Shown here in pieces: positions 44,805 through 62,714 of a DNA stretch of 64,000 nucleotides. How positions within the stretch are numbered: the first letter of the stretch is position 1; each line of letters starts with the position of its first letter. The notes under the pieces are model-generated. The model saw nothing but the letters and a program-made list of their open reading frames with translations. It had not been told where the DNA came from and did no database searches. Position numbers and translations under genes: made by a program. Origin of the DNA: Symmachiella dynata (lineage in GTDB: Bacteria; Planctomycetota; Planctomycetia; Planctomycetales; Planctomycetaceae). The stretch is from the NCBI RefSeq assembly GCF_007747995.1, contig NZ_CP036276.1:6624001-6688000 (forward strand), in the 5' to 3' direction.

Positions 44805-44879
44805 CGGGACGTAGCTCAGCTTGGCTAGAGCACCGGCTTTGGGAGCCGGGGGTCGCAGGTTCGAATCCTGTCGTCCCGA
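44805..44879 (+). tRNA. tRNA-Pro (anticodon TGG)
   Basis: Acceptor arms CGGGACG (44805-44811) and CGTCCCG (44872-44878) pair perfectly. The D arm GCTC/GAGC, anticodon stem CCGGC/GCCGG with loop TTTGGGA (anticodon TGG), and the T arm with GGTTCGAATCC are all visible. CCA is not encoded. The gene is overlapped on the opposite strand by the last codons of the serine recombinase gene, so it is the integration site of the element to its right. Confidence 0.95.
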
Positions 44880-46360
44880 CTATTCTCTAAATCCGGCCTT
44901 TCGGCGAGTTCGTCGAAGGGCTTTCTCTTTTCCAGGACTAGGTTTACGTCGCTCACAACCCGGTTCAAACAAACCGCGTCGAGTATATCGCGCCTGACCG
45001 TATTGTTTGAACCGCGCCAGATTTCTGCCGCCTTTTGCGTCCAATCGAAGAGCGTGACCGCTAGTTCGCCACGGGCCGGATCGACGTCGCCTAGTTTGTC
45101 CAACGACTCGTCCGCGCTGGCTGCTTCGGCCTTCAGCTCGTTGGATTTGGCCTTATATGCGTCATCGTCGATCGTCCCCGCCAGGTACGCGTTGAGGAGG
45201 CGGTCCTGCATGTTCGCCAATTCCGTCTTCCGCTTGGCAAATGAAGCGGCTTGTTGACGCCGGTAGCCCGTCAAGTCGTGCACAGCGGCACCAAGTTCCT
45301 TGCGGAACCATTCGGCGACCTCGAGCGTGGGCATCCGCATCTTCTCTAGGTCAGCGGCAATCGCCTCTTCGAGATCCTGTGCTTTCCAGCGAACCTTGGG
45401 GTGATCGGGGCCACGATTGTTGTTGCAGCACCGGTAATAGATGTGTTCGCGGATTCCACCCCCTTTGAGCTTTCGGCGAATGCGTTCTCCGGTAATCGAT
45501 TGTCCGCAGTATTCACAGCGGAACAAACCACCGGCTAGCGGCAGGTGATAGGTTCCTGTTCGCCGCTTTCGACCACACAAGATCTCCTGACATGCATCGA
45601 ACGTTGCGCGATGGATGACTCGCTGATAGCGCCCCTCGAACACATGGCCGTTCCGGTGCAGTTCACCGATGTAGAAACGGTTATTAAGAATGTGCGACAA
45701 AGCTGTACGGTTAAAGCGGGACTGGCTGTCGCGGAAAACATGACCTTCGCTGGCGAGTCGGTCGGCAAGGCTTTTGAAGGTATGGCTGCCTGACGAATAG
45801 AGGTCGAATATACGAATGAGCGACTTGGCCTTTTCCGGATGTGGTACGACTGGCTCTTCGCGGTCATCAACATTGAGGTACCCGTAAGGGGCCAATCCCG
45901 TGGGCCAGCCCTGGCGCACTTTTTCATCGAGCCCCTTGATCACCTCTTCGCGCAGATTATCGCTGTAGTACTGAGCAACGGCTGCCATCACATTAAACGA
46001 AAACGTTCCGGCAGCGCCTGGACCGAATTCGTTTTCCACAAAGGAAAGTTGCACGCCGCATGCGTCCTCCAGTTCCTGCAGGCGGACCGCGTCGCGCATA
46101 TTGCGACAAGCTCGATCTAACTTGTGGCAGAGGATCGCTTTGATCTTTTCCCGCTTGGCGTTCTTTGCCAGCCACCGCAGCATCTCATTGAAGATCTTTC
46201 GTTCGGCACCGCGCTTGGCTGACTCGTCGAGTTCAAATTCCCGGACGACATTCCACCCCAACCGCTGTGCCTTCTCTCGCGTCACTCTCAACTGGGCGTC
46301 GATCGAGTATCCCTCTTTTTGTTCGCGGGATGAGACCCGCGTCCAAATCACCACATTCAT
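44825..46360 (-). CDS. Large serine recombinase (integrase/excisionase)
   Basis: A 511-residue site-specific recombinase. The N-terminal resolvase domain has the catalytic Ser in WTRVSSREQ (Ser10). The recombinase domain follows (APYGYLNVDD, ALSHILNNRFYIGELHRNG, about residues 160-270). A zinc ribbon (RCEYCGQ then YYRCCNN, about 280-325) and a coiled-coil C-terminus complete the large-serine-integrase layout. The ATG at 46360 is chosen because the resolvase domain begins there. The last residues (DRIRTCDPRLPKPVL) are the antisense translation of tRNA-Pro, and the stop codon (44825-44827) lies in the tRNA D-loop region. After excision the C-terminus would therefore change. It likely integrates and excises this element. 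Confidence 0.93.
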   Translation of the reverse strand: MNVVIWTRVSSREQKEGYSIDAQLRVTREKAQRLGWNVVREFELDESAKRGAERKIFNEMLRWLAKNAKREKIKAILCHKLDRACRNMRDAVRLQELEDACGVQLSFVENEFGPGAAGTFSFNVMAAVAQYYSDNLREEVIKGLDEKVRQGWPTGLAPYGYLNVDDREEPVVPHPEKAKSLIRIFDLYSSGSHTFKSLADRLASEGHVFRDSQSRFNRTALSHILNNRFYIGELHRNGHVFEGRYQRVIHRATFDACQEILCGRKRRTGTYHLPLAGGLFRCEYCGQSITGERIRRKLKGGGIREHIYYRCCNNNRGPDHPKVRWKAQDLEEAIAADLEKMRMPTLEVAEWFRKELGAAVHDLTGYRRQQAASFAKRKTELANMQDRLLNAYLAGTIDDDAYKAKSNELKAEAASADESLDKLGDVDPARGELAVTLFDWTQKAAEIWRGSNNTVRRDILDAVCLNRVVSDVNLVLEKRKPFDELAERPDLENSRDDRIRTCDPRLPKPVL

Positions 46361-46362
46361 GA

Positions 46363-46605
46363 TTACGGCTCCTCTTCGGCACTCAAAAACACTTCTGCCA
46401 ACCGTCGGACGCTCATCAGAATTTCCACCGCTTCGTCTTGACTGATCACTCGGCCATAGGCTTTTGACCAGACGCGACGGGCCTCGGCGATCCGTTCGTC
46501 CGACAACCACTGCGTCGACAACGGGCGCACGCCGCCCGAGTCGGACTCGGGTCCAGTGTGCCGGTTTGGCGGTGGAAATCCAGGCATGTGAGGCGAAGAG
46601 GGCAC
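46363..46605 (-). CDS. Small protein encoded just before the recombinase
   Basis: An 80-residue protein whose stop codon lies 2 bases before the recombinase ATG, so the two are probably co-translated. The C-terminal half (WLSDERIAEARRVWSKAYGR, then SQDEAVEILMSVRRLAEVFL) is amphipathic helix. The first about 30 residues are Pro/Ser-rich. The frame starts with GTG at 46605; an ATG at 46587 is an alternative, and neither has a strong ribosome site. It may be a recombination directionality factor or recombinase cofactor by position; that is inference only. Confidence 0.6.
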   Translation of the reverse strand: MPSSPHMPGFPPPNRHTGPESDSGGVRPLSTQWLSDERIAEARRVWSKAYGRVISQDEAVEILMSVRRLAEVFLSAEEEP

Positions 46606-46903: not shown

Positions 46904-47989
46904 GTGGTAAGTCCCGCCGACAACTGGATGCGCGTATCGCACAGTGACCCCTGCCCCGTTTGCGGCAAACCGGACAACTGTTCGGTTTCCAACGACCGTA
47001 AGGTGGTGTGGTGCGGGCGCGTCTCCGACGGTGCGCTGCGCGTGAATGCCGGTGGGCAATATCTACACCGCTTGGATGACGATCCGTATGACCGGAATCC
47101 GCCACCTCCGGTGCGTATACGGCCATCGACTCGTTCGACTTCGCCGACACAAGACTGGCCCGCGCTGGCGGAGCGGTTTGCTAATGGTGCTGAAGAACAT
47201 CGTCATCGATTGTCCAGGCAATTGGGCGTTTCCGCTACGGCACTTGCTGCCCTCGGCGTCGGTTGGAACGTCGAACGTTTCTGTTGGACGTTTCCCGAGC
47301 GGGATGCGATCGGTCAAATTATTGGGATCGCCACGCGGCGACGGGACGGCTCGAAAATTCGCATGAAGGGTGGACGCACGGGGCTGACGTACGCGTCCGA
47401 CTGGGATGCCGGTGCAGGCTCGATTCTGTTGGTTGAAGGCGGAAGCGACACTGCAGCGCTTTTGACGATTGGGCTTAGCACCTTGGGGCGGCCGTCCAAT
47501 TGTGGTGGTGTGGATCATCTGGTTGGCATGTTGTCCGGGGTTGATCACAACCGTGAGATCATCGTCATCGGAGAACGGGATGAGAAACCCGATGGCAAAT
47601 GGCCAGGCCGTGACGGTGCGGTTCGCACTGCCAAACGCTTGGCCGAAGTACTCGAACGTCCCATTGCCTGGGCACTGCCGCCGGACAACGCCAAGGATGC
47701 CCGTGGTTGGCTCAATGTGATGCCTGAACTTCCTGCAGATCGATTGGCGGATCTATTCGTTTCCGGTTTGGAAACCGCGGTGATCAATCCGCCAGTCGTA
47801 ATCCACCCACCGAAGCCAACTGGGGAGGCGGTTGCGGTCGACGATTGGCGAGATCAGATGCTGCAAGTCCGACTCCGCTCGCTCGGTTGTCCGGGCGTGT
47901 ACATCGACGCCAGTACGACCGGTGCGGGAAAGTCGCACGTCGACCTAGCAGTGATTCTCTGGGCTCTGGGCCGGAGGAACGCCGCATGA
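46904..47989 (+). CDS. Primase-like protein with zinc finger, Toprim domain and terminal Walker A
   Basis: A 361-residue protein starting with GTG (46904; GAGAGAGG 7 bases upstream). Residues 17-37 form a Zn site CPVCGKPDNC plus a later Cys. The central part carries a Toprim domain: ILLVEGGSDTAALL (about 171-184) has the catalytic Glu, and IVIGERDEKPDG (about 221-232) the acidic pair. The last about 25 residues contain a Walker A motif, STTGAGKSHVDLA (about 337-349). Then the frame stops, with a 4-base overlap to the next gene, which continues like the remainder of the helicase. It is therefore the front half of a primase-helicase that has been split in two. Likely starts replication of the element. 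Confidence 0.8.
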   Translation: MVSPADNWMRVSHSDPCPVCGKPDNCSVSNDRKVVWCGRVSDGALRVNAGGQYLHRLDDDPYDRNPPPPVRIRPSTRSTSPTQDWPALAERFANGAEEHRHRLSRQLGVSATALAALGVGWNVERFCWTFPERDAIGQIIGIATRRRDGSKIRMKGGRTGLTYASDWDAGAGSILLVEGGSDTAALLTIGLSTLGRPSNCGGVDHLVGMLSGVDHNREIIVIGERDEKPDGKWPGRDGAVRTAKRLAEVLERPIAWALPPDNAKDARGWLNVMPELPADRLADLFVSGLETAVINPPVVIHPPKPTGEAVAVDDWRDQMLQVRLRSLGCPGVYIDASTTGAGKSHVDLAVILWALGRRNAA

Positions 47990-49773
47990 GGTCGCTACTT
48001 ATTTATCCAACCCACGAAAATTGTGACGAGGTGCGCGAGCAATACGAGGGAAACGACATCATTGCCGCCTGTTATCCGCCGCGTATGACCGAAGACACGG
48101 GCGAGCGCCCACAGAATTGCTGGAACGACAACGCCAACATTGCCGAGGGGATGGGCCTGTCGGTCGTCCAAGCCGTCTGCCCGGCTTGCGAGTTTCGCAA
48201 AAAATGCCGCGAGTCGGGTTATTTGGGCCAGTTATCTACGGTGGCAGATGCCCACGTGGCAATTGCGACGCACAAGCGAGCCGAATACACCGGCCTCGCG
48301 GAATTATCGCAAAGCCGTGAGTACCTATCGATTCATGAAGATGCAATCAGCTTGCTGAGGCCGCCGGCCGAGATCAGTCTCGGTGACATCGTTCAGGCTC
48401 GGCTGTTGGTTCAAGACTACATTCTCAATGATCCGGCATCCCTCAATTGGTTTGGCGATGCGACCCGTGTCGACGACGAGGGCAATCGGTACCAGGATGA
48501 GGAACTGGCCATCCGCCGTGAACGCCAATACGTGTATTTCCGACTGATGTCAGGGCTTTTAGAGCATTTATTTCAGGCGATTGAAGCTGCTGACCAGACG
48601 GACGAATGGTCGCCTCCGGAGACAGCCAGAGTTCCCGCCGGTTTCGAACGCACCCTGTTCTTTAGCATCCGCCGCGCGAACATCGATTTCCGGGATCAGC
48701 CATGGCGGTTCTTGCTGACGGCCGCCTCGGGCAAACTCCATTTGGCGGCAATCATTGTTGAGCGGCGATTTCACAAGGGAGGCGGACAGGGGAATGCGTA
48801 TCTGAAGAAATCGGTCGTCGGCGTGATCGATAATCCGCCGCCGACGAACTGCGTGGTATGGATCAATGACGCTACGGCCGACACCGAACACGTCGAAGCG
48901 ATCGTTGGCCACGCGGTTCACCAAGCCACACCAGACGGACACATCGAACTCCGCAAGAAGGCGGTACAAATCCCGCGCGACATTACCCGGCGGACCTCCG
49001 CCAAGACCGTTCGCGGCCTGATTCGCGGAGTAATGGCCGACCGACCGCAGTTCCGCCGCATTGGCATAATTGGCCACAGTACACACATGTCGGTCCTGAA
49101 GAAGTTGGGGGCCGGTTTCGATGAGCGGATTGTCAAAACCAGTTATTTCGGCAGCGGTGAGGAAAGATCATCAAACGACTGGCACCACAAGTGTGATCTG
49201 ATCATCGTTGCCGGCACGCCGCGGATTCCGCCTGCAGCGATTGCCAAACATCTCGTGCAAATCGGCGAAATGAGCGCCGCAACCTGCGAACCGGAATGGG
49301 GTGTTATCTACTGGCACGGCGAGACCGAGTCGCATGAACCCACGAAAGTGAATTCGCGCGGCTACAAGAATGAGGCGTGGCGACGCGCCCACCAAGATCT
49401 CGTCCGCGCTCAGATCGTGCAGGCCACCGGTCGGGGCCGCGGCATCCTGGAGACCGGGTGTGAAGTCCTAGTCCTCTCCGATGAGGAGTGTGGTCTGCCC
49501 CTTTCGGATTCCGGGGTTGAAATCCTCAACGATGCCAGTGTTGCGATATTGAACGCGCTCAGTGAATTAACGACGGAAAATCCTAATAAGTATATATTAG
49601 GAAAACCCGTCGTTAGCACCGGTCAGCTTGCCGAGACGACAGGCCTGTCCCGTTCGCGCTGCCGGGATCTGCTTCGTGACCTCGAACGCCGCGGGCTCGT
49701 TCAAAAGATCGGCGAACGCTCCGGTTGGCGTCTTGTGTTGAGTTCCGCCGAGGAGGTCGCGCCATGTCCGTGA
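47986..49773 (+). CDS. SF2-like helicase lacking its own Walker A
   Basis: A 595-residue protein; GGAGGA lies 7 bases upstream of its ATG (47986), which overlaps the previous stop. It starts directly with a motif-Ia-like segment (LLIYPTHENCDEV). Cys45, Cys65, Cys68 and Cys74 (QNCWND, then CPACEFRKKC) have the look of an Fe-S or Zn cluster between helicase motifs, as in XPD/DinG-type enzymes. A motif-II-like IHEDA follows (about 117). The C-terminal helicase half holds RRIGIIGHSTH and the motif-VI-like QATGRGRG (about 480). The end (STGQLAETTGLSRSRCRDLL) is a winged helix. The Walker A it needs is at the end of the preceding protein. Confidence 0.75.
   Translation: MRSLLIYPTHENCDEVREQYEGNDIIAACYPPRMTEDTGERPQNCWNDNANIAEGMGLSVVQAVCPACEFRKKCRESGYLGQLSTVADAHVAIATHKRAEYTGLAELSQSREYLSIHEDAISLLRPPAEISLGDIVQARLLVQDYILNDPASLNWFGDATRVDDEGNRYQDEELAIRRERQYVYFRLMSGLLEHLFQAIEAADQTDEWSPPETARVPAGFERTLFFSIRRANIDFRDQPWRFLLTAASGKLHLAAIIVERRFHKGGGQGNAYLKKSVVGVIDNPPPTNCVVWINDATADTEHVEAIVGHAVHQATPDGHIELRKKAVQIPRDITRRTSAKTVRGLIRGVMADRPQFRRIGIIGHSTHMSVLKKLGAGFDERIVKTSYFGSGEERSSNDWHHKCDLIIVAGTPRIPPAAIAKHLVQIGEMSAATCEPEWGVIYWHGETESHEPTKVNSRGYKNEAWRRAHQDLVRAQIVQATGRGRGILETGCEVLVLSDEECGLPLSDSGVEILNDASVAILNALSELTTENPNKYILGKPVVSTGQLAETTGLSRSRCRDLLRDLERRGLVQKIGERSGWRLVLSSAEEVAPCP
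49568..49615. repeat. 48-bp two-tiered palindrome inside the helicase gene
   Basis: TAACGACGG (49568-49576) pairs with CCGTCGTTA (49607-49615). Inside, TCCTAATA (49581-49588) pairs with TATTAGGA (49595-49602) around AGTATA. The 4- base spacers AAAA/AAAC do not pair. The AT-rich centre stands out from the GC-rich gene. It encodes the linker between helicase core and winged helix. It could be a protein-binding dyad, a replication or recombination site, or an mRNA hairpin. Confidence 0.8.
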
Positions 49774-49919
49774 CTTCACCGCTGAATATGCTTTCCGCCA
49801 ATGACGTTGTTCGGCTGGTTGCTCCAGTGACACCTAGGTGGGGCTGCCACAGAAATGCCAATAGGTACTTCCGGGCGATCCTGGCAAGGTGCCCCCCGCG
49901 AAAACAGTCGCGCTATTGA
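49764..49919 (+). CDS. Small hypothetical protein after the helicase
   Basis: A 51-residue protein. AGGAGG lies 8 bases before the ATG at 49764, and the gene overlaps the helicase stop by 10 bases, which supports coupled translation. LSANDVVRLVAPVTPRWGC resembles the start of an excisionase-like helix-turn-helix, but the protein is too short to hold a full domain. It may be a truncated gene. Unknown function. Confidence 0.45.
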   Translation: MSVTSPLNMLSANDVVRLVAPVTPRWGCHRNANRYFRAILARCPPRKQSRY

Positions 49920-49997
49920 TGACAGTTTGTTTTGGTTGTCCGAATCACCTTAACCCCTTGGCATGACACATGATGCTGACTGAAACATGGAAGGCCA

Positions 49998-51578
49998 ATG
50001 ATGAAATCCGCGACAGGCATGACGAAACGAAAACGAAAGTCGCAGCGTGTGCGGCAGGCGATCATGGAGCATTGGCGGTCACTGAGCGATCGCGAGATTG
50101 CTCTTGGGCTGCAGGTCAGCAACAGGACTGTCTCCCAACATCGGAAACGACTGGAAGATGAGGGGCGGATTCTTCCCCGGTCCGAAAGTACACAGGCTGT
50201 CGGGGCATGCCAGTTCGAGGTGTGTACTTCCGCGATTTCGCCGGCCCCGCTCAACGACCAGCTCTACGATCCGGTCGATGAATCCGAACCATCATTCTGT
50301 GCGCTGGTTGAGAACGTCCGTGAAAATGGAATCTTGGAACCGATCGTGGCCAGCGGCGATGGCTACATCCTCTCGGGGCATCGTCGCCACGCGGCGGCAC
50401 GATGTGTGGGGTTGGAACGCATTCCGGTCCGCATCCGGCACGACGTGTCGTACGTCGGCGACCGGGATGAGTTTCTACGGTTGCTCGCAAGCTACAACCG
50501 CCAGCGGGTTAAGACGACTGCCGAACAGGTGCGTGAGGAGGTCGCGTTGATGTCAGAGCGTTCCTGTTCGCGGGTTCGCCGGTTTCGGCGCGATTCAGCA
50601 GTTGTCGACGGCAATTGCACGGTTGCACTTCGAAAACGCAAACGCCGGTCGGCAATTCGGGACAAGATGGCACTGCGGGAGGCGATCATAAAGGTCGTCC
50701 AAGACGAGCAACGCAATTGGCCGTTGAGCGATCGGTCTGTTTTTTATCGGCTGCTCAATATCCCCGGACTGGTCCGCAACGACCGTACGCGCGTGCCCTT
50801 TACCAATACGCCAGCCGCTTATGACGATGTGACCAATATGCTCACTCGGTTGCGACTGGACGGCTCGGTGCAGTTTGAGGCGATCTCCGACGAAACGCGG
50901 CCGGTCATGATGTGGGACACACATCGCGCCGCCGGGGATTTCGTCCGCCGGGAATGCGATCAGTTCCTGACCGGCTATTGGCGCGATCTGTTGCAAAGTC
51001 AGCCGAATTGGATCGAACTCCTGGTCGAGAAGAACACGGTCGCCAGCCAACTCCGCGCCGTCGCCGGTAAATACACGATCCCGATGACGAGCGGTCGCGG
51101 TTATTCGTCGCTGCCACCCCGCAAAGAGATGGTTGATCGCTTCAACAAAAGCGGTCGTGAGAATCTCGTAGTGATTGTGGTCAGCGACTTCGATCCTGAA
51201 GGGGAGGACATTCCGGCGAGTTTCGGTATATCGCTACGGGACGACTTCGGTGTGGCCGCCGATCAGCTGCGAATCGTCAAAGCTGCGCTTACGGCCGATC
51301 AAGTCGAGACGATGGATCTGCACGAGGGGCAGCTCTCCAAGGAATCCTCGTCGCGGTACCGCCGGTTCGTTGAGGCCCACGGCGACCGGGCCTGGGAATT
51401 GGAATCGCTCACGTCAGAGCAATTGCGGGAAGTGGTAGAGGCCTCCATTCGCGATGTGTTGGATCTAAATGCATTTGAGGCGGAAGTAGATCGCGAGCAA
51501 CAGGAACAGAGTGAGTTGGAAACGAAGCGCCGGCAACTGCGCCGGTCGCTGATCGACGATGTGAACGACCTCGACTAA
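49998..51578 (+). CDS. HTH-ParB-Toprim protein, Spo11/topoisomerase VI A-like
   Basis: A 526-residue fusion. Residues about 15-60 are a helix-turn-helix (LSDREIALGLQVSNRTVSQH). About 95-150 is a ParB N-terminal domain (LVENVRENGILEPIVASG then LSGHRRHAAARCVGL). About 235-300 is a winged-helix stretch with SDRSVFYRLLN (Tyr250), like the catalytic-tyrosine region of Spo11/TopoVI-A. About 340-420 is a Toprim domain: LLVEKNTVASQL holds the Glu, TSGRGYSS follows, and VVSDFDPEGEDI (Asp397, Asp399) provides the metal-binding pair. ATG at 49998 or 50001 fits the ribosome site GGAAGG. No B-subunit (ATPase) gene is visible. It may cut, relax or partition element DNA; the combined domain set is unusual. 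Confidence 0.7.
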   Translation: MMKSATGMTKRKRKSQRVRQAIMEHWRSLSDREIALGLQVSNRTVSQHRKRLEDEGRILPRSESTQAVGACQFEVCTSAISPAPLNDQLYDPVDESEPSFCALVENVRENGILEPIVASGDGYILSGHRRHAAARCVGLERIPVRIRHDVSYVGDRDEFLRLLASYNRQRVKTTAEQVREEVALMSERSCSRVRRFRRDSAVVDGNCTVALRKRKRRSAIRDKMALREAIIKVVQDEQRNWPLSDRSVFYRLLNIPGLVRNDRTRVPFTNTPAAYDDVTNMLTRLRLDGSVQFEAISDETRPVMMWDTHRAAGDFVRRECDQFLTGYWRDLLQSQPNWIELLVEKNTVASQLRAVAGKYTIPMTSGRGYSSLPPRKEMVDRFNKSGRENLVVIVVSDFDPEGEDIPASFGISLRDDFGVAADQLRIVKAALTADQVETMDLHEGQLSKESSSRYRRFVEAHGDRAWELESLTSEQLREVVEASIRDVLDLNAFEAEVDREQQEQSELETKRRQLRRSLIDDVNDLD

Positions 51579-51616
51579 GGTTTCAACTATATCAACATCC
51601 CACGGAGTCCGTGACT

Positions 51617-52936
51617 ATGAAGATTGAACAATGGCCCATCGATCGGGTCAAACCATACGACAAAAACCCTCGCGTAAATGATCAGGCCGTCGATGCCGTG
51701 GCCAAGTCAATCAAGGAATTTGGCTTCCGCCAACCACTTGTCGTCGACGCGGACGGCGTGCTGATCGTCGGCCATACGCGCTGGAAGTCCGCCCAGAAGC
51801 TGGGGCTCTCAAAAGTTCCGGTCCACGTTACAAAGGATCTGACCCCCGAACAAATCAAAGCGTATAGGATCGCAGACAACAAGTCCGGTGAATTAGCTGA
51901 ATGGGATTTCGATCTGTTGGCAATCGAACTCGGCGAATTGCTGGCATGTGACTACGACTTGAGCCTGATTGCGTTCGACGAAGACGAACTCGCCAAGCTA
52001 CTCGGGGATGATGTGCAGGCAGGCATGACCGATCCGGACGACGTGCCCGAGCCCCCCGATGAAGCGATCACACAGCCGGGCGACCTGTGGCTCCTTGGTG
52101 ACCATCGCTTGCTGTGCGGCGACAGCAGCAAGCCACAGGATGTGGATCGATTGCTCGACGGTGCGGCTATTCATCTTCTGAATACTGACCCGCCCTACAA
52201 TGTCAAAGTTGAACCGAGGTCGAATAATGCGATCGCCGCTGGCAACAGCAGCTTTGCAAAAACCAACAAGCACCATCAGAAATTCGACCTGGAACGTCAC
52301 CCGGAGAAGGCGAAGGCGACGCACAAAAAAATGCGAGCCAAGGATCGACCGCTGGAAAACGACTTCGTATCCGACGAAGAATTCGACCGACTGCTCGATG
52401 CGTGGTTTGGTAATGCGGCCCGCGTGTTGGTACCGGGTCGCGGGTTTTACATTTGGGGCGGCTATGCCAACTGCGCGAACTATCCGCCATTTCTCAAGAA
52501 ACACGGGTTGTATTTCTCGCAGGCCATCATTTGGGACAAACAGCACCCCGTGCTCACAAGAAAAGATTTTATGGGGGCTCATGAATGGTGTTTCTACGGT
52601 TGGAAGGAGGGCGCGGCACACAAGTTCTTCGGCCCCAACAATGCGACCGATCTGTGGGCTGTCAAGAAGGTCAATCCGCAGAGCATGATACATTTGACGG
52701 AGAAGCCGGTCGAACTTGCCGTGCGGGCGATCCAGTACTCGTCGCGAACGGGCGAGAACGTGCTCGATCTGTTCGGCGGAAGCGGCTCGATGTTGATCGG
52801 GTGTGAGCAGACCGGTCGCAAGGCTTTCTTGATGGAACTCGATGCTCCGTATTGCGACGTGGTTGTCGAGCGCTGGGAGAAATTTACCGGGCGGAAGGCG
52901 GAGCGGGTGGCGAACTCAGAAGTCGTACACACTTGA
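51617..52936 (+). CDS. ParB-domain site-specific DNA methyltransferase
   Basis: A 439-residue protein. Residues 1-90 are a ParB/sulfiredoxin-type domain (IDRVKPYDKNPRVNDQAVD, then GVLIVGHTRWKSAQKLG). A DNA methyltransferase follows: motif IV LNTDPPYNV (about 188-196) comes before motif I DLFGGSGSMLIG (about 381-392), the beta-class order typical of N6-adenine or N4-cytosine enzymes. GGAG lies 9 bases before ATG 51617; a GTG two codons earlier is possible. No restriction endonuclease gene is adjacent, so it is likely an orphan methylase that protects or marks element DNA. Such ParB-methylase fusions are common in phages and islands. Confidence 0.92.
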   Translation: MKIEQWPIDRVKPYDKNPRVNDQAVDAVAKSIKEFGFRQPLVVDADGVLIVGHTRWKSAQKLGLSKVPVHVTKDLTPEQIKAYRIADNKSGELAEWDFDLLAIELGELLACDYDLSLIAFDEDELAKLLGDDVQAGMTDPDDVPEPPDEAITQPGDLWLLGDHRLLCGDSSKPQDVDRLLDGAAIHLLNTDPPYNVKVEPRSNNAIAAGNSSFAKTNKHHQKFDLERHPEKAKATHKKMRAKDRPLENDFVSDEEFDRLLDAWFGNAARVLVPGRGFYIWGGYANCANYPPFLKKHGLYFSQAIIWDKQHPVLTRKDFMGAHEWCFYGWKEGAAHKFFGPNNATDLWAVKKVNPQSMIHLTEKPVELAVRAIQYSSRTGENVLDLFGGSGSMLIGCEQTGRKAFLMELDAPYCDVVVERWEKFTGRKAERVANSEVVHT

Positions 52937-52938
52937 GG

Positions 52939-53865
52939 TCATCTTGCATCTTGCCAACTCCACACCTCAACACGGCACTCGCGGGACAGAGATGGTTCAT
53001 AGAGCACGGTACATGCTTCGCAGAGGTCGTCGGCAGGATTCCATTTGACAAAATCACGATATGCGTCGAGCAGGCGACGCGGACCAAGAACAGGACATTG
53101 GGGAGATTGCAATCTGTGAATTATTTCTTCGCTTTTCCATCCAGTCTTTGCGGCGAGACGTGTCACCGCATCCGGACTAGGCTGCGGGTCCGAATGAAGC
53201 GCACTGATTACGCCATCCAGCAGTGGTTTAATAACAGATGTCATATTGCGAACAGCGTTTGGGAGTTTGACGATAACGCGCATCTCAAACAGACCATTGA
53301 CGGCACGGGACGGACCTGTACTTGCAACACTAGCTGGCCACCAGATCTGATGGGGTTTCGTAGCGGACGTCAGCGAGCAAATTTCGAAATTCAGGCTACA
53401 GCACGGATCACGTGGCGGAGAATGAGATGGTTCGATCAATCGGTATTCATGGTAGTGGTTGAAACTTCCGCCACAGGGACTCGACGGTGGTTGTGTGCGG
53501 TTTCGTTCGAATCGAAGTCCCTCCATCGCCACTGCAGCAAAGGCAGCTGCGCCAACGTTGTACAAGAGCACGTTCTCGACATCGCAAAATCTGCAGTCAA
53601 GAGAGCGATACGTGGCGGCGAGGATATGACCGGATTTCGGCTCAAGAGACAAAAGCGCTTTCCGCAGTGCATCCCGCGCTTCCCGCATATTTCCCTTTGG
53701 CTCGAACGGCAGTCTGGTATCGACCCAGAACTGCACCGAGCTTCGATCGGCTTCCAGATAAAATCGAGCTTCATTTTTCATACGTCGAACATTACACCAC
53801 TCCACGGCAGCGAATTCCAGCACTCCATCGAAATGGGTGTGCATCTCGAGCCGATCCATCGCCAA
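52939..53865 (-). CDS. Hypothetical protein
   Basis: A 308-residue protein on the minus strand, convergent with the methyltransferase (2 bases between stops). I do not recognise the family. The first about 100 residues (FYLEADRSSVQFWVDTRLPF, then REARDALRKALLSLEP) look like one alpha/beta domain. The segment FEMRVIVKLPNAVRN with SVIKPLLDGVISALHSDP (about 205-240) faintly recalls RusA-type Holliday junction resolvases (K-x-x-L-D-x-L pattern), but the diagnostic Asp residues are not clear. Coding character is far better than the 359-residue open frame on the opposite strand. Its start diverges from the DUF1937 gene 62 bases away. Confidence 0.7.
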   Translation of the reverse strand: MAMDRLEMHTHFDGVLEFAAVEWCNVRRMKNEARFYLEADRSSVQFWVDTRLPFEPKGNMREARDALRKALLSLEPKSGHILAATYRSLDCRFCDVENVLLYNVGAAAFAAVAMEGLRFERNRTQPPSSPCGGSFNHYHEYRLIEPSHSPPRDPCCSLNFEICSLTSATKPHQIWWPASVASTGPSRAVNGLFEMRVIVKLPNAVRNMTSVIKPLLDGVISALHSDPQPSPDAVTRLAAKTGWKSEEIIHRLQSPQCPVLGPRRLLDAYRDFVKWNPADDLCEACTVLYEPSLSRECRVEVWSWQDAR

Positions 53866-53927
53866 TCCGCGAAGTCACTTATTGCACGCTGGGTACGTTT
53901 GTTAGGGCATCACATGGAGGTGGCAAC

Positions 53928-54299
53928 GTGATTTATTTGGCCAGCCCCTATTCACACACCGATGCGATTGTCCGCGAGCGCCGGTTCCGTGCGGCGTGCC
54001 GTGTTGCGGCGCGTTTGATCCGCTCTGGTGAGGTCGTGTTCTCGCCGGTGGCGCATGGGCATGCGATTTCGCTCTACGGTGTCCCGACGGATTGGCAATT
54101 TTGGGAGCCACATGACCGACGGTTCTTGGAACAGTGCCATGAGGTCGTTGTGCTCATGCTTGACGGTTGGCAAGAGAGCGTTGGCGTGCAGGCTGAGATC
54201 CAAATCGCAGGGGAACTGGGCAAGCCGGTGCGGTATCTGGCACCGGCCGGAAACGGGGCGACGACGTTGGCCCACGTCGCCGAGGAGGCGGAGCGTTGA
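53928..54299 (+). CDS. DUF1937 family protein (nucleoside deoxyribosyltransferase-like)
   Basis: A 123-residue protein starting with GTG (53928) with GGAGG 7 bases upstream. The N-terminal IYLASPYSHTDAIVRERR, the central FSPVAHGHAISLYGVPTDWQ and the C-terminal VVVLMLDGWQESVGVQAEI match the DUF1937 family, which shares the fold of nucleoside 2-deoxyribosyltransferases (the last motif carries the catalytic-type Glu). These genes are frequent in phage genomes. May act on nucleotides or modified nucleosides. Confidence 0.88.
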   Translation: MIYLASPYSHTDAIVRERRFRAACRVAARLIRSGEVVFSPVAHGHAISLYGVPTDWQFWEPHDRRFLEQCHEVVVLMLDGWQESVGVQAEIQIAGELGKPVRYLAPAGNGATTLAHVAEEAER

Positions 54300-54319
54300 A
54301 CAAACCTACCCCCAACAAG

Positions 54320-54352
54320 AAAACGCCCCGACGTTGGCAACGTGGGGCGTTT
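54320..54352. terminator. Bidirectional hairpin terminator
   Basis: AACGCCCC-G-ACGTTG (54322-54336) pairs with CAACGTGGGGCGTT (54338-54351), a stem of 14 base pairs with a single bulge and a one-base (or melted) loop. It is preceded by an A-run and followed by TTTG. It sits 20 bases after the DUF1937 stop and before the end of the convergent HARE-HTH gene, so it can serve both. Confidence 0.75.
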
Positions 54353-54376
54353 GTCGCGGACAGGGCCGGGAACTCG

Positions 54377-54754
54377 CTACTTATTGAGCGTGAACTGGCC
54401 CCGATCCGCCTTCAGGAACCGCGATTCCTTGCCCTTCGTTTGGATCTCGCGAATGATTGCCGCGTAGAGCGTAGCGTGCGGTGTCCGGCCGCCGGGGCTA
54501 GTCCAATATCCCTTCGCCGCCATCCGCTCGATCATCGTCTTGGCGTTGAGCGGTTCCTTGGATTCGCCGAGAACCTTCGCGGCCGCGTCGAGGGCACTCA
54601 TTTTCTTATCGCCCGACTTCGCTGTGGTCTTTTTCGCCGCTGGTTTCTTCTGGGCGGCTGGTTTGGCGGGCGTTTTCTTTGCCGTCGCCGCTTTGCTCGT
54701 GGCAGTTTTCTTGGTCGTGGTTTTCTTCGCAGCGGTCTTTGTCTTCGTAGCCAT
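54377..54754 (-). CDS. HARE-HTH protein with histone-like Lys/Ala tail
   Basis: A 125-residue basic protein. Residues 1-48 are a Lys/Ala/Thr repeat tail (KKTTTKKTATSKAATAKKT and similar), as in bacterial histone H1-like proteins. Residues about 52-125 are a HARE-HTH (HB1/ASXL) winged-helix domain: SALDAAAKVLGESKEPLNAK, then MIERMAAKGYW, ending ESRFLKADRGQFTLNK. This domain is found in RpoE-delta, chromatin and restriction-associated proteins. GAGGGAAAA precedes the ATG. Probably a DNA-compacting or modified-DNA-sensing protein of the element. Confidence 0.88.
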   Translation of the reverse strand: MATKTKTAAKKTTTKKTATSKAATAKKTPAKPAAQKKPAAKKTTAKSGDKKMSALDAAAKVLGESKEPLNAKTMIERMAAKGYWTSPGGRTPHATLYAAIIREIQTKGKESRFLKADRGQFTLNK

Positions 54755-54897
54755 GGTCGTTTTCCCTCATCGAAACTGGTTTGCGGTTTGCCCGGCGACC
54801 GACGCGGTCGCCGTCGACTGGACACCAGTTACCTCACCTTTCCGAAGACATCCAGCACTGTTTGGCAAGATTCTCCAGAATTCCGAAAGGTCGCCTG

Positions 54898-55116
54898 ATG
54901 ATCGAGAATCACCCCGAATCGATGAATCCGAACGCACTACCGATCGAAGTAGCGGTGCGTCTATTGACTAAGGCGGGCGGACGTATTGTCACTGAAGAAA
55001 TGCTTCGCGCGGACATCGACGCTGGTGCACCGACAAACCTCGATGGCACGATTAATCTCGTGCACTATGCCGCTTGGAACGTGCAGCAAATAGCAGGGAT
55101 GACCGATGGCAATTGA
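54898..55116 (+). CDS. Small protein before the terminase
   Basis: A 72-residue protein. GAAAGG lies 8 bases before the ATG at 54898, and the gene overlaps the terminase start by 11 bases. The segment PIEVAVRLLTKAGGRIVTEE followed by IDAGAPTNLDGTINLVHY is a compact helical domain like a DNA-binding head domain. By position it could be a terminase small-subunit-type partner, but this is not supported by any motif. Unknown function. Confidence 0.6.
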   Translation: MIENHPESMNPNALPIEVAVRLLTKAGGRIVTEEMLRADIDAGAPTNLDGTINLVHYAAWNVQQIAGMTDGN

Positions 55117-57370
55117 CCCGCGCAACTTGCGACCGTCCGAACTTGTGCGGCTGATGAACTCCACGCCGTTGGGTGAGGTGATCAACGAACGGCAGTTGTA
55201 TCGCCATCGTTCGCGCGCGGGGTTTCGGATTGGCGATGGGAAATCGGTGGACCTACTACGGTATGTCGCTTGGCTCGTCATCGAGCGGCACACTCCGAAG
55301 CCGGAAGCCGATGGTGACCCGTACGAAACACTCAAAGACCGAGCGCGGGCCCGTAACGCGGCGCTGTCCCTCGCCGGTCGCGACATCGGCGAAATGCCGG
55401 CCGTCATCGATCCGTCCAGAAAGGCAAAAGCGGAAACTGATTTCTGTTATTTCTGCGAAGCCTACTTTCCGCTGACGTTCTACTTAGAGTGGTCCGCCGA
55501 TCATCAAAAGGTGATGGCCAAAATCGAACAGGCCGTTTTGCATGGTGGATTGTTCGCGATGGCCATGCCCCGCGGTTCGGGTAAAACGACGATTTGTGAA
55601 TGCGCCTGCATCTGGGCCGTGCTGTTCGGACATCGCGAGTTCGTCTGCCTGATCGGATCGGACGAGGGGCATGCGATGGACATGCTTGACTCAATCAAAA
55701 TGGAACTCGATGGCAATGAATTGCTGTTGGCTGATTTTCCGGAAGTCGTGTTCCCGATCCAAAGCCTGGAAGGGATCGCCAATCGGTGCAGTGGTCAGCT
55801 CTACAACGGCGAAAGGACACACATCGGTTGGACCGCGAAGGAAGTCGTGTTACCTACGATTCCCGATTCCAAGGCGAGTGGAGCCATTATCAAGGTGGGT
55901 GGGATCACCGGACGGATTCGCGGGATGAAGTTCAAACGACCCGACGGGCACACGGTGCGTCCATCGCTCGTTGTTTTGGACGACCCGCAGACGGACGAGT
56001 CGGCCCGTAGTCTTTCACAATGTGCGAATCGCGAAAGCATTCTGGCCGGAGCGGTATTGGGTTTGGCAGGTCCCGGTAAAAAGATTTCAGGCATCATGCC
56101 CTGCACCGTGATCCGGCCGGGCGATATGGCCGACAACATTCTCGATCGCGACAAACATCCCGAGTGGAACGGTGAGCGGACGCGGATGGTGTATGCGTTC
56201 CCCACGAACGAGAGTCTCTGGGCACGGTATGCGGAATTACGGGCCGAAGGGTTGCGCAACGGTGACGGCGGGAAAGCAGCCACTGAATTCTACGGCGAGC
56301 ATCGCGCTGAGATGGATGCCGGTGCGATCGTGGCGTGGCCCGAGCGTTTCAATCCCGACGAATTGTCGGCGATCCAACACGCGATGAACCTCAAATTGCA
56401 GGACGAGGCGGCGTTCTTCGCGGAGTATCAGAACGAGCCGCTGCCCGAGGAGAAAATCGATGACGATCTGCTCACGCCGGACCAAGTGGCCGCGAAAACC
56501 AATGGCATGCGGCGTGGTGAAATCCCTCTCCCCTGTAACCACTTGACGATGTTTATCGACGTGCAGCAGAAATTGTTGTTCTACCTCGTGGCCGCCTGGG
56601 AGGACGATTTCACCGGCTACGTTGTCGACTACGGAAGTTACCCAGATCAGAAACGGCAATACTACACATTGCGGGACGCGCGGCAGACACTGGCGGCGGT
56701 TGCGGAGGGGACAGGACTAGAAGGGTCCATCTACGCTGGACTGGAAGTGCTAACAAATGATTTACTCGGTCGCGAATGGCGTCGGGACGATGGTGCGGCG
56801 ATGCGGGTTGAACGCTGTTTAATCGATGCTAACTGGGGGCACTCGACCGACGTCGTCTATCAATTTTGCCGGCAGAGTTCTCATTCCACGATATTGACGC
56901 CCTCGCACGGCCGGTTTGTCGGCGCATCGACCATTCCCTTCTCAGAGTACAAGCGCAAACAGGGTGAACGCGTGGGATTGAATTGGCGGATTCCCAACGT
57001 GCGTGGCAAGCGCGCCGTGCGACACGTGGTGTTCGATACGAACTGGTGGAAATCGTTCGTACACGCGCGACTGGCTGTTGCCATGGGCGACCGCGGCTGC
57101 TTGTCGCTGTTCGGTTTCAAAGCCGAGACACACCGGTTGATAGCGGAACACATCACGGCTGAATACTTCGTCAAAACAGAAGGGCGAGGCCGCAAAGTCG
57201 ATGAATGGAAGATGCGCCCCGAGCAGAGCGACAATCACTGGTTGGATTGCTTGGTGGGCAGCGCGGTTGCGGCTTCGATCCAGGGGGCGGTCTTATTCGG
57301 GACCGGCGCAGCACCGCCCAAAGAAAAGAAGCGGCTCAAGCTTTCGGAATTGCAGCGGAGCAAGCGGTAG
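55106..57370 (+). CDS. Phage-type terminase large subunit
   Basis: A 754-residue DNA-packaging motor protein. After an N-terminal DNA-binding region (residues 1-110) comes an ATPase: Walker A AMPRGSGKTT (about 154-163), adenine region, and Walker B LVVLDDPQTDES (about 289-300). The C-terminal nuclease has an Asp in MFIDVQQKLLF (about 485), and EQSDNHWLDCLVGSAVAA (about 708-725) with another Asp, as in GpA-type terminases. Length and order fit the family. No portal, capsid or tail gene follows; the next gene is a convergent helicase. It thus may package the element into the particles of a helper phage. Confidence 0.9.
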   Translation: MAIDPRNLRPSELVRLMNSTPLGEVINERQLYRHRSRAGFRIGDGKSVDLLRYVAWLVIERHTPKPEADGDPYETLKDRARARNAALSLAGRDIGEMPAVIDPSRKAKAETDFCYFCEAYFPLTFYLEWSADHQKVMAKIEQAVLHGGLFAMAMPRGSGKTTICECACIWAVLFGHREFVCLIGSDEGHAMDMLDSIKMELDGNELLLADFPEVVFPIQSLEGIANRCSGQLYNGERTHIGWTAKEVVLPTIPDSKASGAIIKVGGITGRIRGMKFKRPDGHTVRPSLVVLDDPQTDESARSLSQCANRESILAGAVLGLAGPGKKISGIMPCTVIRPGDMADNILDRDKHPEWNGERTRMVYAFPTNESLWARYAELRAEGLRNGDGGKAATEFYGEHRAEMDAGAIVAWPERFNPDELSAIQHAMNLKLQDEAAFFAEYQNEPLPEEKIDDDLLTPDQVAAKTNGMRRGEIPLPCNHLTMFIDVQQKLLFYLVAAWEDDFTGYVVDYGSYPDQKRQYYTLRDARQTLAAVAEGTGLEGSIYAGLEVLTNDLLGREWRRDDGAAMRVERCLIDANWGHSTDVVYQFCRQSSHSTILTPSHGRFVGASTIPFSEYKRKQGERVGLNWRIPNVRGKRAVRHVVFDTNWWKSFVHARLAVAMGDRGCLSLFGFKAETHRLIAEHITAEYFVKTEGRGRKVDEWKMRPEQSDNHWLDCLVGSAVAASIQGAVLFGTGAAPPKEKKRLKLSELQRSKR

Positions 57371-57463
57371 GTGGAGGGAGGGAATAGAGATGCGGAAGAA
57401 CCTCTTGGTACTCCCTCTACAACCTCGAGTAGCCAAGCCGTTCGCTAGTCGCATCGAATGACA

Positions 57464-60400
57464 CTAGCAGGAACTGGTTGTCATACTTCTTTCGACGGTG
57501 GTGAGCGCAAGGGGAGGCGTCAGATCGATTCGCAGTTTTTGAAAGTGCTCAGCCAGTTGTTCAGCAGTGAACTGTTGGGACAAGTATTCAAGCAGGTCGT
57601 CTTGCCGAGGCTGACCGAACACCATGCGGTAAACGGCTAAGGAGCGTTTGAGGTCGGGGACCATCGATATTTCTTTACTCAAAGGCAGCATGGGAAGGTG
57701 CCTTTCGATCATGGCTCCATCTTCAATGCTGTATAGCCAATACGGAATAAGGTCGTGGTTTGTCACGCGACTCCGGCGGGCGGCCTCGAATAAATAAGTC
57801 CAAGGGTCTTCATCACGTCGAGAGTCCGAGATCGCGGTAACGTGCCGACTCGCCACATTCTTTCTGACAGCATGGCCTTTGTATCGGTGTACCCGGCCCT
57901 CGCGCTGTTCAAGGTCGACTGGATTAGCTGGCAGGTTCCAATGCACAACGGCGTGACAATACTGATGAAAGTCCAATCCCTCTTGGCCGATTGAGGTGGT
58001 GGCCAACACGAACGGCCAGAACGGCGAGTTGAAAGCCGCCCTGACATGTTCTTTTCGGAGTCGGGAACTCTCCTGCTCAGCATGGTCGTCGCCAAATCGC
58101 ATTGCGAAACGGGAACGGGTGACGTGAGACTGAACTTTGATCGCGCCGTCCTTGCTGGCTTGAATGTCGTCTATATGCGGCTGAGAAACACGAATCGTGA
58201 CAGCTTCTGTTAGAGATGTGGCTAGCGCTTTCACGGATACCTCCGGTGGTTTCCCGGCGAGCGACTGAGCGTCGTGCTGAACGTGCATGTACTCGTCAAG
58301 AACACTCTGCAAACAGCCGTCACAACAGTACTCGAGTACCCGCCGCCAATAAGGTTCGGCACGATTCAATCCGCGAATCATCGCGATGACTTCCGGTAGA
58401 TTGAACTGATACCGGAGCGCCCAGCCAATTGCCCCTGCGGCATCACGAACTTCCATGTTTGTCGTAAGCTGTTCACCCTGGCACATTCGCACGAGAGCGC
58501 GTAGCGCTGCCGTCGCTGGCCCGCCGATTGCGGCTAACGCCATTACATCACCTAAGTCGTCAGGCGGTCTGCCAAGTTCACCGGGGTTGTTGGCCAGTTC
58601 CACGGCACGTTTGACGTGATCAGTCCAGGCAGTATCAGCCGTACCTTCTCGTCTTGGGATGTACGGCCCGCGCCAATCCTCCGCCAATGAAGCGTATTCC
58701 AGCCATTCACCGATCTCATTCGGCCACGTTTCAAGATCGAGCAGAATGGGTGCTACCCAATACCAATCAGCGTCTGTTGGACCTGTGTTCGGTTGATTCC
58801 GCGTGAGTTTGCGTAGTGCTTTCTTAATAGTCGTGCGAGCCTTGCCCAGCACTTCGGACAGCGGAGGACGTCGGCCTTCTCGGAGTGCAGGCTTCGCCAA
58901 TTCCAGTGGGTCACAATAAGTCGCGAAGAAGCTACACGGGTAAACCAACCCCAGAACAGGCATGCCGCTCAGTCGCCCTTGCGAGCGAGCGAAATCCAAT
59001 AGTCTCGCGCGTCGCTCGCGATCGGCGGTCGTGTTTCGGGCTTCCGCATCAAATGACTGAAACATCTGCCGTTCTGCTTCATAGCTGAGAAGCACTGAAA
59101 TTGCTTTCGGCACGACTTTCCAGCTTGAGAATATCAATCGCTTCGTGAACTGTCCCAGACCCGTCGCCGCGAATGGCCCCGCCAGTTCGTGATAGGGCGC
59201 TGATGGCGGCAGCCAAAGGAGCTTCCATAATTCAGCACCGTCGCACTCCAGTGTCTCGCTTGCCAACTCTCTGAGTCGCGAATTCACAGGATCAATCGAC
59301 TCGTAATTCTCCATTACACCGGTGGAGAGCAGCGAGTGCTTGCACGCAAGAAGCTGCGCGGCGAGTTCTTTGGCGGCGCGTGAGCCTCGACGAAGCCAAT
59401 CAGCAGTGGTGTCGAACGACTGCTTCAGCTTGTATTGCTCCATGAAGTTCAGCAGGAAAGGCGCGGACTTCCAGTATTCCGTTTGGTCTGTCAACTGTCC
59501 GCCGTTGACTGATTCCAACCAATTGATAAGCCGCCCGGTCTCAAGGAAGGACTCAATGTCTTCTTTGGTAATCGGAACCGGAGATCGCACTTCCTTCAAC
59601 ATGGCATCACGAGTTGTCGAGACGGCCATGCGTTCCGTTCTCACCATGACATCTCGCAGCTGTGACTCCAGTGAGCATCGATGTTTTTCGGCTTGTTGTC
59701 CATCTCCTTCGGTCAACTGATACAGCGATCGTCGAAACTCGCGCAGAGTTTTGTCGATTCGTTCCGCTGCATTTGCATCCGACAACAGGAAGTTGATTGT
59801 CTTGAGGAAATCCCGGTAGTGATCATCGTCACCTGCATCGAGGCCGCGTGTGTACATCTTGTAGGGTGTTGCTGAAAGCAGAAGGACGCGAGCATCCTTC
59901 CATTCGAATAACTTCTCAGCCAGGAGGCCAGCATCGTCCTCGCCTTCCAGCAGGCTACGAAACCGTTGAAATTCGTCAAGGATGATCAGGTCCGGGCTCA
60001 ATGCACGGATACAGGTTTCCGCGAGCAAAGCTCGCAACTCACCAATCATCGAGCGTATTTCGGAACGAGTGTCTTCGGGTATCCGTTTCCATTCCCGTGA
60101 CCTTGGCAACTCGCGGCATACGCGATTGAACCGCACCTTGAGCGTTGACCGCCCTCGTTCTCGACATTCAGCATTATCGTCCGCAAGTGCTGCGCGAAAC
60201 GCTGATTTCAGACCACGTGAAATACTGCGGTCTCTGTCGAATCGCTTGATCTGTTCTCGGAAATTCTGTTTTTCGACGCCGACCTGCAAGACGTTTTTGG
60301 GAGCCGCCCCATCCAACTGCCAGATTGACTTCAACATCCAGTACAGCAGCACTCGTTCCTCTTTACGGCCCGTCGCATTCTTGAGATCGAACGACGTTCC

Positions 60401-60784
60401 GGGAGTCAGGGCAATGAAATTCAGTTTGTTCTTCTTCAAATCCTCGACATGCTGTGGCAACAATGTGATGCGATCCGGTGACTTGAACTCGACGTCGCTA
60501 CTGATGTTCAGCCTCTGCACGTTCTGCCGTGCAATATCTCCGCTGGAACAGATATAGATGATGTTGATACTGCGTTGTTGCCACAAATGCTCCACAACTT
60601 TGGCAATAACGCCACGTGCGACAAGCGTTTTACCGAGTCCAACCTCATCAGCAACGAGAAATCTTCGAGTTGGCTCATTTGCCTCGTACATGCGATCGAA
60701 CACATGTTCGACCGTGCACCGCTGGAAGTCTTTCAGCCGATTCAAAACCACTTCAGGGTTAGGTTTTGGGGTAGCCTGAGTCAT
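57464..60784 (-). CDS. SF2 helicase of putative defence operon
   Basis: A 1106-residue SNF2/DEAD-like helicase. Walker A VADEVGLGKTLVA (Lys52), motif II LIILDEFQRFRS (about 268-279), motif III LLLSATPYKM (about 300-309), and in the C-terminal half TTSIGQEGLDFHQYCHAVVH and motif VI QREGRVHRYKG (about 920-965) are present. The long middle (about 320-880) is helical and family-specific. It overlaps the PLD gene stop by 4 bases, so the two proteins are coupled. Together with the PLD and DUF6361-like proteins it resembles helicase-nuclease anti-phage systems. Convergent with the terminase gene. Confidence 0.9.
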   Translation of the reverse strand: MTQATPKPNPEVVLNRLKDFQRCTVEHVFDRMYEANEPTRRFLVADEVGLGKTLVARGVIAKVVEHLWQQRSINIIYICSSGDIARQNVQRLNISSDVEFKSPDRITLLPQHVEDLKKNKLNFIALTPGTSFDLKNATGRKEERVLLYWMLKSIWQLDGAAPKNVLQVGVEKQNFREQIKRFDRDRSISRGLKSAFRAALADDNAECRERGRSTLKVRFNRVCRELPRSREWKRIPEDTRSEIRSMIGELRALLAETCIRALSPDLIILDEFQRFRSLLEGEDDAGLLAEKLFEWKDARVLLLSATPYKMYTRGLDAGDDDHYRDFLKTINFLLSDANAAERIDKTLREFRRSLYQLTEGDGQQAEKHRCSLESQLRDVMVRTERMAVSTTRDAMLKEVRSPVPITKEDIESFLETGRLINWLESVNGGQLTDQTEYWKSAPFLLNFMEQYKLKQSFDTTADWLRRGSRAAKELAAQLLACKHSLLSTGVMENYESIDPVNSRLRELASETLECDGAELWKLLWLPPSAPYHELAGPFAATGLGQFTKRLIFSSWKVVPKAISVLLSYEAERQMFQSFDAEARNTTADRERRARLLDFARSQGRLSGMPVLGLVYPCSFFATYCDPLELAKPALREGRRPPLSEVLGKARTTIKKALRKLTRNQPNTGPTDADWYWVAPILLDLETWPNEIGEWLEYASLAEDWRGPYIPRREGTADTAWTDHVKRAVELANNPGELGRPPDDLGDVMALAAIGGPATAALRALVRMCQGEQLTTNMEVRDAAGAIGWALRYQFNLPEVIAMIRGLNRAEPYWRRVLEYCCDGCLQSVLDEYMHVQHDAQSLAGKPPEVSVKALATSLTEAVTIRVSQPHIDDIQASKDGAIKVQSHVTRSRFAMRFGDDHAEQESSRLRKEHVRAAFNSPFWPFVLATTSIGQEGLDFHQYCHAVVHWNLPANPVDLEQREGRVHRYKGHAVRKNVASRHVTAISDSRRDEDPWTYLFEAARRSRVTNHDLIPYWLYSIEDGAMIERHLPMLPLSKEISMVPDLKRSLAVYRMVFGQPRQDDLLEYLSQQFTAEQLAEHFQKLRIDLTPPLALTTVERSMTTSSC

Positions 60785-62709: not shown

Positions 62710-62714
62710 TTGCG

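Follow-up and report, generated by a model that had tools for sequence, protein, structure and literature searches.

A protein joining a ParB-type domain to a Mini-A topoisomerase core in mobile elements of Planctomycetota

We describe a protein, P0001, in which a helix-turn-helix (HTH), a domain of the ParB/Srx fold and the core of Mini-A, a truncated homologue of the type IIB topoisomerase A subunit, follow one another in a single chain. We are highly confident of this domain architecture and of the Mini-A identity of the core. P0001 is encoded in the window, by which we mean the whole stretch of 64,000 nucleotides that was analysed (positions 6,624,001-6,688,000 of a single-contig genome of 7.77 Mb). 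Since the protein has 526 aa, with ParB and HTH added, it is a variant architecture containing a Mini-A core and not an ordinary Mini-A. The overall best explanation of the data, to which we give roughly an even chance, is that P0001 serves in a phage or satellite replication module, with a ParB clamp that positions and gates tyrosine-dependent DNA cleavage.

Mini-A proteins were reportedly presented by Takahashi et al. in 2020 as phage and plasmid proteins that resemble the A subunit of type IIB topoisomerases. Mini-A and ParB are each already known, and their fusion is undescribed in the literature that we searched, which did not include the primary Mini-A paper (PMC7671362). According to reviews, the function of Mini-A is unknown (PMC8084294) and no archaeal Mini-A has been characterised (PMC8185306).

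Table 1 Features of the window, with positions counted from its first letter and the basis of each assignment.
Feature	Position	Strand	Basis or remark
Large serine recombinase (integrase), borders the element	44825..46510	-	Pfam, PHROGs
Primase-like gene: Cys-rich finger, Toprim-like motif, C-terminal Walker A; no family match	46904..47989	+	inferred from motifs
Helicase-like gene, C-terminal HTH	47845..49773	+	inferred from motifs
Block upstream of the fusion, conserved in viral contig L049 as well; putative promoter/operator	49862..49945	+	
HTH-ParB-Mini-A fusion protein P0001	49998..51578	+	526 aa, uninterrupted ORF
N-terminal helix-turn-helix, aa 10-60	50025..50177	+	Pfam, AlphaFold2 model; missing from the L048, L155, L169 and L170 fusions
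ParB/Srx-fold domain, aa 66-190	50193..50567	+	Pfam, VIA-align (7bnr, Z 12.1), hhalign
Helical linker, aa 191-238	50568..50711	+	predicted model; conservation among the lowest in the protein
Winged-helix (CAP-like) region with catalytic Tyr250 and Arg246	50712..50987	+	conservation, alignments
Toprim domain: Glu344, Asp397, Asp399, Glu467	50988..51458	+	conservation, hhalign, VIA-align, MAFFT
C-terminal long helix, aa 488-526	51459..51575	+	AlphaFold2 models
ParB-N6/N4 DNA methyltransferase, next gene	51611..52936	+	Pfam, PHROGs; adjoins the fusion in copy B, L049 and L171 too
Phage terminase large subunit (gpA type), where the segment in common with copy B ends	55106..57370	+	Pfam, PHROGs

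Domain layout and the Mini-A core

A preliminary description of this DNA had placed an HTH, a ParB domain, a winged-helix tyrosine and a Toprim in one chain, and every element that it named is present. The HTH (aa 15-58) gives sub-threshold Pfam matches to HTH_23, HTH_24 and HTH_28 with E 0.002-0.01, reaching 1e-4 in the best homologue, and is modelled by AlphaFold2 as three helices with pLDDT above 90. ParB_N is matched at aa 99-148 with E 8.5e-6 and 26.2 bits, against a gathering cut-off of 26.3. The type IIB topoisomerase A-subunit core spans aa ~224-487. Pfam gives no significant match to TP6A_N or TOP6A-Spo11_Toprim in P0001, and its generic Toprim model reaches E 0.22. Because the core is not detected directly by Pfam, we argue its homology through phrog_6247, the Mini-A of phage NP1, profile alignment and fold.

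The PHROGs family phrog_6247, 'DNA topoisomerase', matches aa 269-512 of P0001 with E 1.7e-34. The same family is matched by the Mini-A of the Pseudomonas phage NP1 (E 1e-137), which a review shows as its example of Mini-A (PMC7614492, Figure 4), and by an archaeal plasmid protein annotated 'Topo Mini-A' (LC711082; E 6e-56). Both proteins also match P0001 directly, NP1 over aa 243-493 with E 3e-18 (tblastn, phage records) and the archaeal protein with E 2e-9. With these two matches and all three proteins in phrog_6247, the earlier lead to 'Mini-A' was correct.

The preliminary description had made its reading depend on the conservation of Tyr250 and the Toprim acids, and also on the fold of the core; it withstands both checks, the latter as judged from the Toprim part. 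In an alignment of 84 homologues, R246 and Y250 are kept in 83/83 of those spanning the site, E344, D397 and D399 in 84/84, and E467 in 83/84. On the DNA, the codons are read at 50733-50735 (Arg246), 50745-50747 (Tyr250), 51027-51029 (Glu344), 51186-51188 (Asp397) and 51192-51194 (Asp399). In Topo VI-A (Top6A), the residues are R102, Y106, E202, D254, D256 and the clasp partner E342 (PMC13040014). The spacing from Tyr to Glu is 94 in P0001 and 96 in Topo VI-A, and that from Glu to the first Asp is 53 and 52, respectively.

Comparison of the family with nine chromosomal planctomycete Topo VI-A proteins by hhalign gives E 1.9e-5. A stricter first run covered the Toprim alone (E 4e-5), and the wider alignment superposes R246-Y250, E344, the DxD motif and E467 on their Topo VI-A equivalents. 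When two fusions are aligned by MAFFT, unguided, with NP1, the archaeal Mini-A and a pair of chromosomal Topo VI-A proteins, R246, Y250, E344, K345, D397, D399, G402 and E467 remain invariant. Judged from the alignments, Glu467 is the counterpart of the clasp Glu of Topo VI-A.

As to the fold, AlphaFold2, supplied with an 84-row alignment, models the whole chain with a mean pLDDT of 87.2 and aa 205-526 alone with pLDDT 91.7 and pTM 0.79. The predicted core matches Topo VI-A in its Toprim part. For this part only, VIA-align finds Topo VI-A (1d3y) at Z 12.3, with 2.6 Å over 140 residues, and 9o0g at Z 12.1, followed by MksG (8b7f, Z 11.2), JetD (7til, Z 10.1) and Spo11 (Z 9.6). Since the match spans the Toprim only, we assign the winged helix with Tyr250 from conservation, profile alignment and predicted secondary structure. 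In a PDB profile search, 1d3y was the one sensible match (E 0.32-0.35), which is suggestive, not decisive. The named matches in a viral structure library are ParB and other non-topoisomerase proteins, with no topoisomerase among them.

The preliminary description had further proposed looking for a Topo VI-B or GHKL gene. PF04406 (Topo VI-A) and PF09239 (Topo VI-B transducer) have no match genome-wide, while four archaeal controls are positive, and Pfam finds no GHKL domain among the element ORFs scanned. We considered that a Topo VI-B partner might be hidden elsewhere in the genome and rejected this on the empty PF09239 search. In a sample of the phylum, PF04406 is matched in 133/294 genomes, but in 0/17 of the listed genomes of the window's own family.

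The ParB part and nucleotide binding

The ParB segment of the fusion aligns with chromosomal ParB at a probability of 99.3% and E 3e-20 (hhalign), and aa 70-190 superpose on CTP-bound ParB (7bnr) with Z 12.1 and 2.0 Å over 92 residues (VIA-align). D121, G127-H128-R129-R130 (GHRR), N167, Q169 and R170 (N167xQR170), K172 and E176 are invariant across eight fusions. CTP binding by Caulobacter ParB requires residues R60, G79, R103, R104, N136 and R139, hydrolysis implicates Q58, E102 and E135, and the E102A mutation locks the clamp closed (PMC8367383).

Mapping by hhalign shows that most CTP-binding positions are kept in P0001: G79 corresponds to G111, R103/R104 to R129/R130, N136 to N167 and R139 to R170. 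The position of R60 is Gln, Lys or Ala in the fusions, which makes CTP binding uncertain. All three hydrolysis positions are replaced, Q58 by N86, E102 by H128 and E135 by Tyr, Cys, Ala or His (residue 166), so a canonical ParB CTPase cycle in the fusion is doubtful. On this sequence evidence, the ParB part is a putative nucleotide-binding clamp that probably lacks canonical hydrolysis. A ParB with most of the CTP-binding residues but without those of hydrolysis would parallel, in nature, the 'clamp-locked' E102A mutant made in the laboratory.

Recurrence and gene neighbourhood

The same genome contains two further full-length copies of the fusion: copy B (3,705,603-3,707,180) is 94% identical to P0001, and copy C (232,506-234,056) is 55% identical. 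Full fusions are found at 12 loci, plus one broken, solely in Planctomycetota and IMG/VR contigs. Three of the loci are in the window's genome; the others are G385, G389 and G339, the MAG contigs L046 and L048, and the viral contigs L016/L049, L050/L052, L051/L156 (where the contig end cuts the gene) and L155. P0001 is no isolated chimera, since its genome has the two further copies and its architecture recurs in viral contigs and in other Planctomycetota. The ratio dN/dS (Nei-Gojobori) is 0.098 against the 94% copy, indicating purifying selection on the fusion gene, and 0.11 against a viral homologue of 70% identity. A chance or annotation artefact is ruled out by the recurrence in 12 loci (and the broken one) and by the dN/dS of about 0.1.

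The full fusion is rare, occurring in 4/392 genomes of the phylum sample. In a phage collection, 63/50,697 records match P0001 by tblastn, those among the matches listed with the C-terminal part only, and no phage or plasmid record of the annotated collections matches at least 80% of P0001. The HTH is absent in L048 and, from the N-termini read, in L155, L169 and L170, which leaves ParB plus Mini-A as the part that the fusions have in common. The broken locus is the MAG contig L047 (JAJDEG010000064.1), where a 79%-identical fusion is split across two ORFs, as an inactivated copy or an assembly error. At G087:C26:15777-16150 (L019), a disrupted relative of the core is divided into two pieces that overlap, 53% and 72% identical, and one of them contains a stop.

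In the window, the fusion gene belongs to a segment (46918-57387) that is repeated at 3,702,523-3,711,886 with ~89% identity and contains the primase-like, helicase-like, fusion, ParB-methyltransferase and gpA-type terminase genes. The methyltransferase diverges after 52122, and the segment is unmatched from there to 53915 (a gap at ~52.1-53.9 kb). The helicase-like ORF overlaps the primase-like ORF by ATGA, assuming a start at MRSLL. This overlap and the terminal Walker A of the primase-like ORF lie at 47960-48020, and the arrangement is the same in copy B; from these two observations, the pair may be a split or frameshifted helicase.

Similar surroundings are found at other loci. In G339, the fusion (L171) has a Prim-Pol gene on one side and a ParB-methyltransferase gene on the other, after which come HNH-like, small terminase and large terminase genes; the methyltransferase and the large terminase are confirmed by PHROGs, and the HNH-like and small terminase genes were read from the sequence. 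The G389 fusion and copy C each lie in an apparent small element that also carries Prim-Pol and a gene resembling tyrosine integrases. A primase or Prim-Pol gene adjoins the fusion, or is a few genes off, in L049, copy C, L048, L051, L155, G389 and G339; in G385, the stretch read around the fusion showed no recognisable primase gene. Stand-alone Mini-A genes of annotated phages have primase, ligase, ThyX, Sak4, polymerase and exonuclease genes as neighbours. This primase and replication neighbourhood points to replication or recombination, and not to partition or defence.

Between the Prim-Pol and fusion genes of L049, 11 YTTTTGGCCA sites (at most one mismatch, both strands) are located at 7284-7902. 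The locus contains 12 in total, a number reached by 0/200 shuffles, and the sites form a possible origin or loading-site array. Such an array was seen in this one viral contig only, and the DNA upstream of the window gene, when searched, gave neither parS-like nor iteron arrays. A protein of 101-128 aa with an 'ESLHG' motif recurs upstream of the replication genes (L132:8191-8496, L171:6269-6655, L049:1858-2208), and its L171 copy has no family match. Right after the shared segment of the window, three genes on the minus strand (57464-63926) match ZacC (1116 bits), ZacB and ZacA of PADLOC, and may form an anti-phage defence module next to the element.

Proposed role, alternatives and related systems

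We propose that a Mini-A gained an N-terminal ParB clamp, and usually an HTH too, and that the resulting fusion works in the replication module that temperate phages and small integrative elements carry in Planctomycetota. The chain would dimerise via its Mini-A core, and the HTH/ParB part would load it onto the element DNA near the origin. The clamp would close upon binding of a nucleotide, probably CTP, and since the Glu and Gln implicated in CTP hydrolysis are replaced, the nucleotide would act as a slow or one-way latch. Tyr250 of one subunit and the Toprim acids of the other would then form a transient 5'-phosphotyrosyl break. This break would serve the replication of the element (initiation, relaxation or resolution) and not a partition of the chromosomal type.

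That Tyr-dependent cleavage is targeted and gated in this way for replication is a tentative part of the proposal, and we place it somewhat short of an even chance. The preliminary description had suggested a coupling of cleavage or passage to segregation or site recognition. Site recognition or gating is plausible, as the gene context points to a phage replication module, whereas segregation of the chromosomal type is unsupported, with no ParA among the element ORFs scanned. A natural fusion to a ParB clamp offers a concrete idea of how a type IIB enzyme lacking a B subunit could reach DNA and be switched. If nucleotide-driven closure of ParB controls cleavage by Tyr250, the fusion would provide a second, GHKL-independent gate for an active site of the Topo VI type.

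The strongest alternative to a replication-module protein is a conflict nuclease, although we regard it as unlikely. The ParB/Srx domain would itself have nuclease or NTPase activity and would act together with the Mini-A core to destroy host or competitor DNA, in the manner of polyvalent phage proteins. ParB/Srx domains fused to other enzymes have been reported as non-specific nucleases or NTPases (PMC5512222), and the gene next to the fusion is likewise a ParB fusion. However, the fusion gene is grouped with primases and replication genes and not with late genes, P0001 has no defence-family match except in its ParB segment, and the topoisomerase Tyr and clasp, neither of which a simple hydrolytic nuclease needs, are kept in essentially all homologues. 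The invariant Tyr also speaks against a hydrolytic Toprim endonuclease of the Wadjet/MksG/GajA type, acting in defence or superinfection exclusion. The Toprim fold is common to MksG and JetD, at the Z scores of 11.2 (8b7f) and 10.1 (7til) given above, but the sequence family is Mini-A and not JetD/MksG, and no SMC/Muk-like neighbour was noticed on reading the nearby ORFs. This reading is very unlikely.

A role in partition or decatenation, in which ParB marks a centromere-like site of the element and Mini-A unlinks the replicated copies, would agree with the ParB fold and its conserved GHRR and NxQR motifs, and some carriers (copy C, G389) do resemble small integrative elements with few genes. 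We nevertheless find it improbable, as Pfam detects no ParA among the element ORFs scanned (small ORFs being partly covered), no repeat array lies upstream of the window gene, and there is no Topo VI-B partner to pass strands. Real strand passage would also be expected if P0001 were a type IIB topoisomerase with a ParB N-gate where Topo VI-B/VIII have their GHKL gate. CTP-driven closure around DNA would then bring the winged-helix tyrosines of the Mini-A dimer onto the G-segment. In fused Topo VIII, the nucleotide-gate domain precedes the A core in one chain, and the gate domain of P0001 is likewise N-terminal to its A core. To our knowledge there is no equivalent of the transducer, and the replaced hydrolysis residues make cycling doubtful, which leaves this reading quite improbable even though ParB-CTP and GHKL-ATP gates both dimerise nucleotide-binding domains around DNA (PMC8367383, PMC13040014). 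If true, it would mean a topoisomerase or programmed break enzyme driven by a pyrimidine nucleotide.

Compared with known systems, P0001 shares with Mini-A the PHROG family, the core of winged-helix Tyr and Toprim, all catalytic residues, the lack of a B partner and a neighbourhood of replication and recombination genes. The two named Mini-A proteins compared have ~300 aa and no added domains, whereas P0001 adds ParB in the chain (the fusions usually HTH as well) and has a short insert, IPGLVRNDRTR, after the Tyr motif. The Toprim fold, the R-x3-Y motif, the E/DxD acids and the R-E clasp are common to P0001 and Topo VI-A/Spo11; identity over the core is ~21-22%, and the genome of P0001 has no Topo VI-B. 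Topo VIII, the fused B-A type IIB topoisomerase of mobile elements, resembles the fusion in having an N-terminal domain of the nucleotide-gate type before the A core, but the gate of the fusion has the ParB/Srx and not the GHKL fold, and no transducer domain was detected.

MksG and JetD of Wadjet, which are defence nucleases acting with SMC complexes (PMC13040014, PMC10123090), have the same Topo VI-A-like Toprim fold as the fusion and belong to a different sequence family. On the ParB side, no ParB HTH or C-terminal dimer domain was found in the fusion and GERR is changed to GHRR, while the fold of the ParB N-domain and the GxRR and NxQR motifs are common to the CTP clamps ParB, Spo0J, Noc and KorB. 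Finally, the ParB-methyltransferase fusions of phages (phrog_498) have a ParB segment of different sequence and, unlike P0001, a methylase as partner; they too carry ParB N-terminal to a DNA enzyme.
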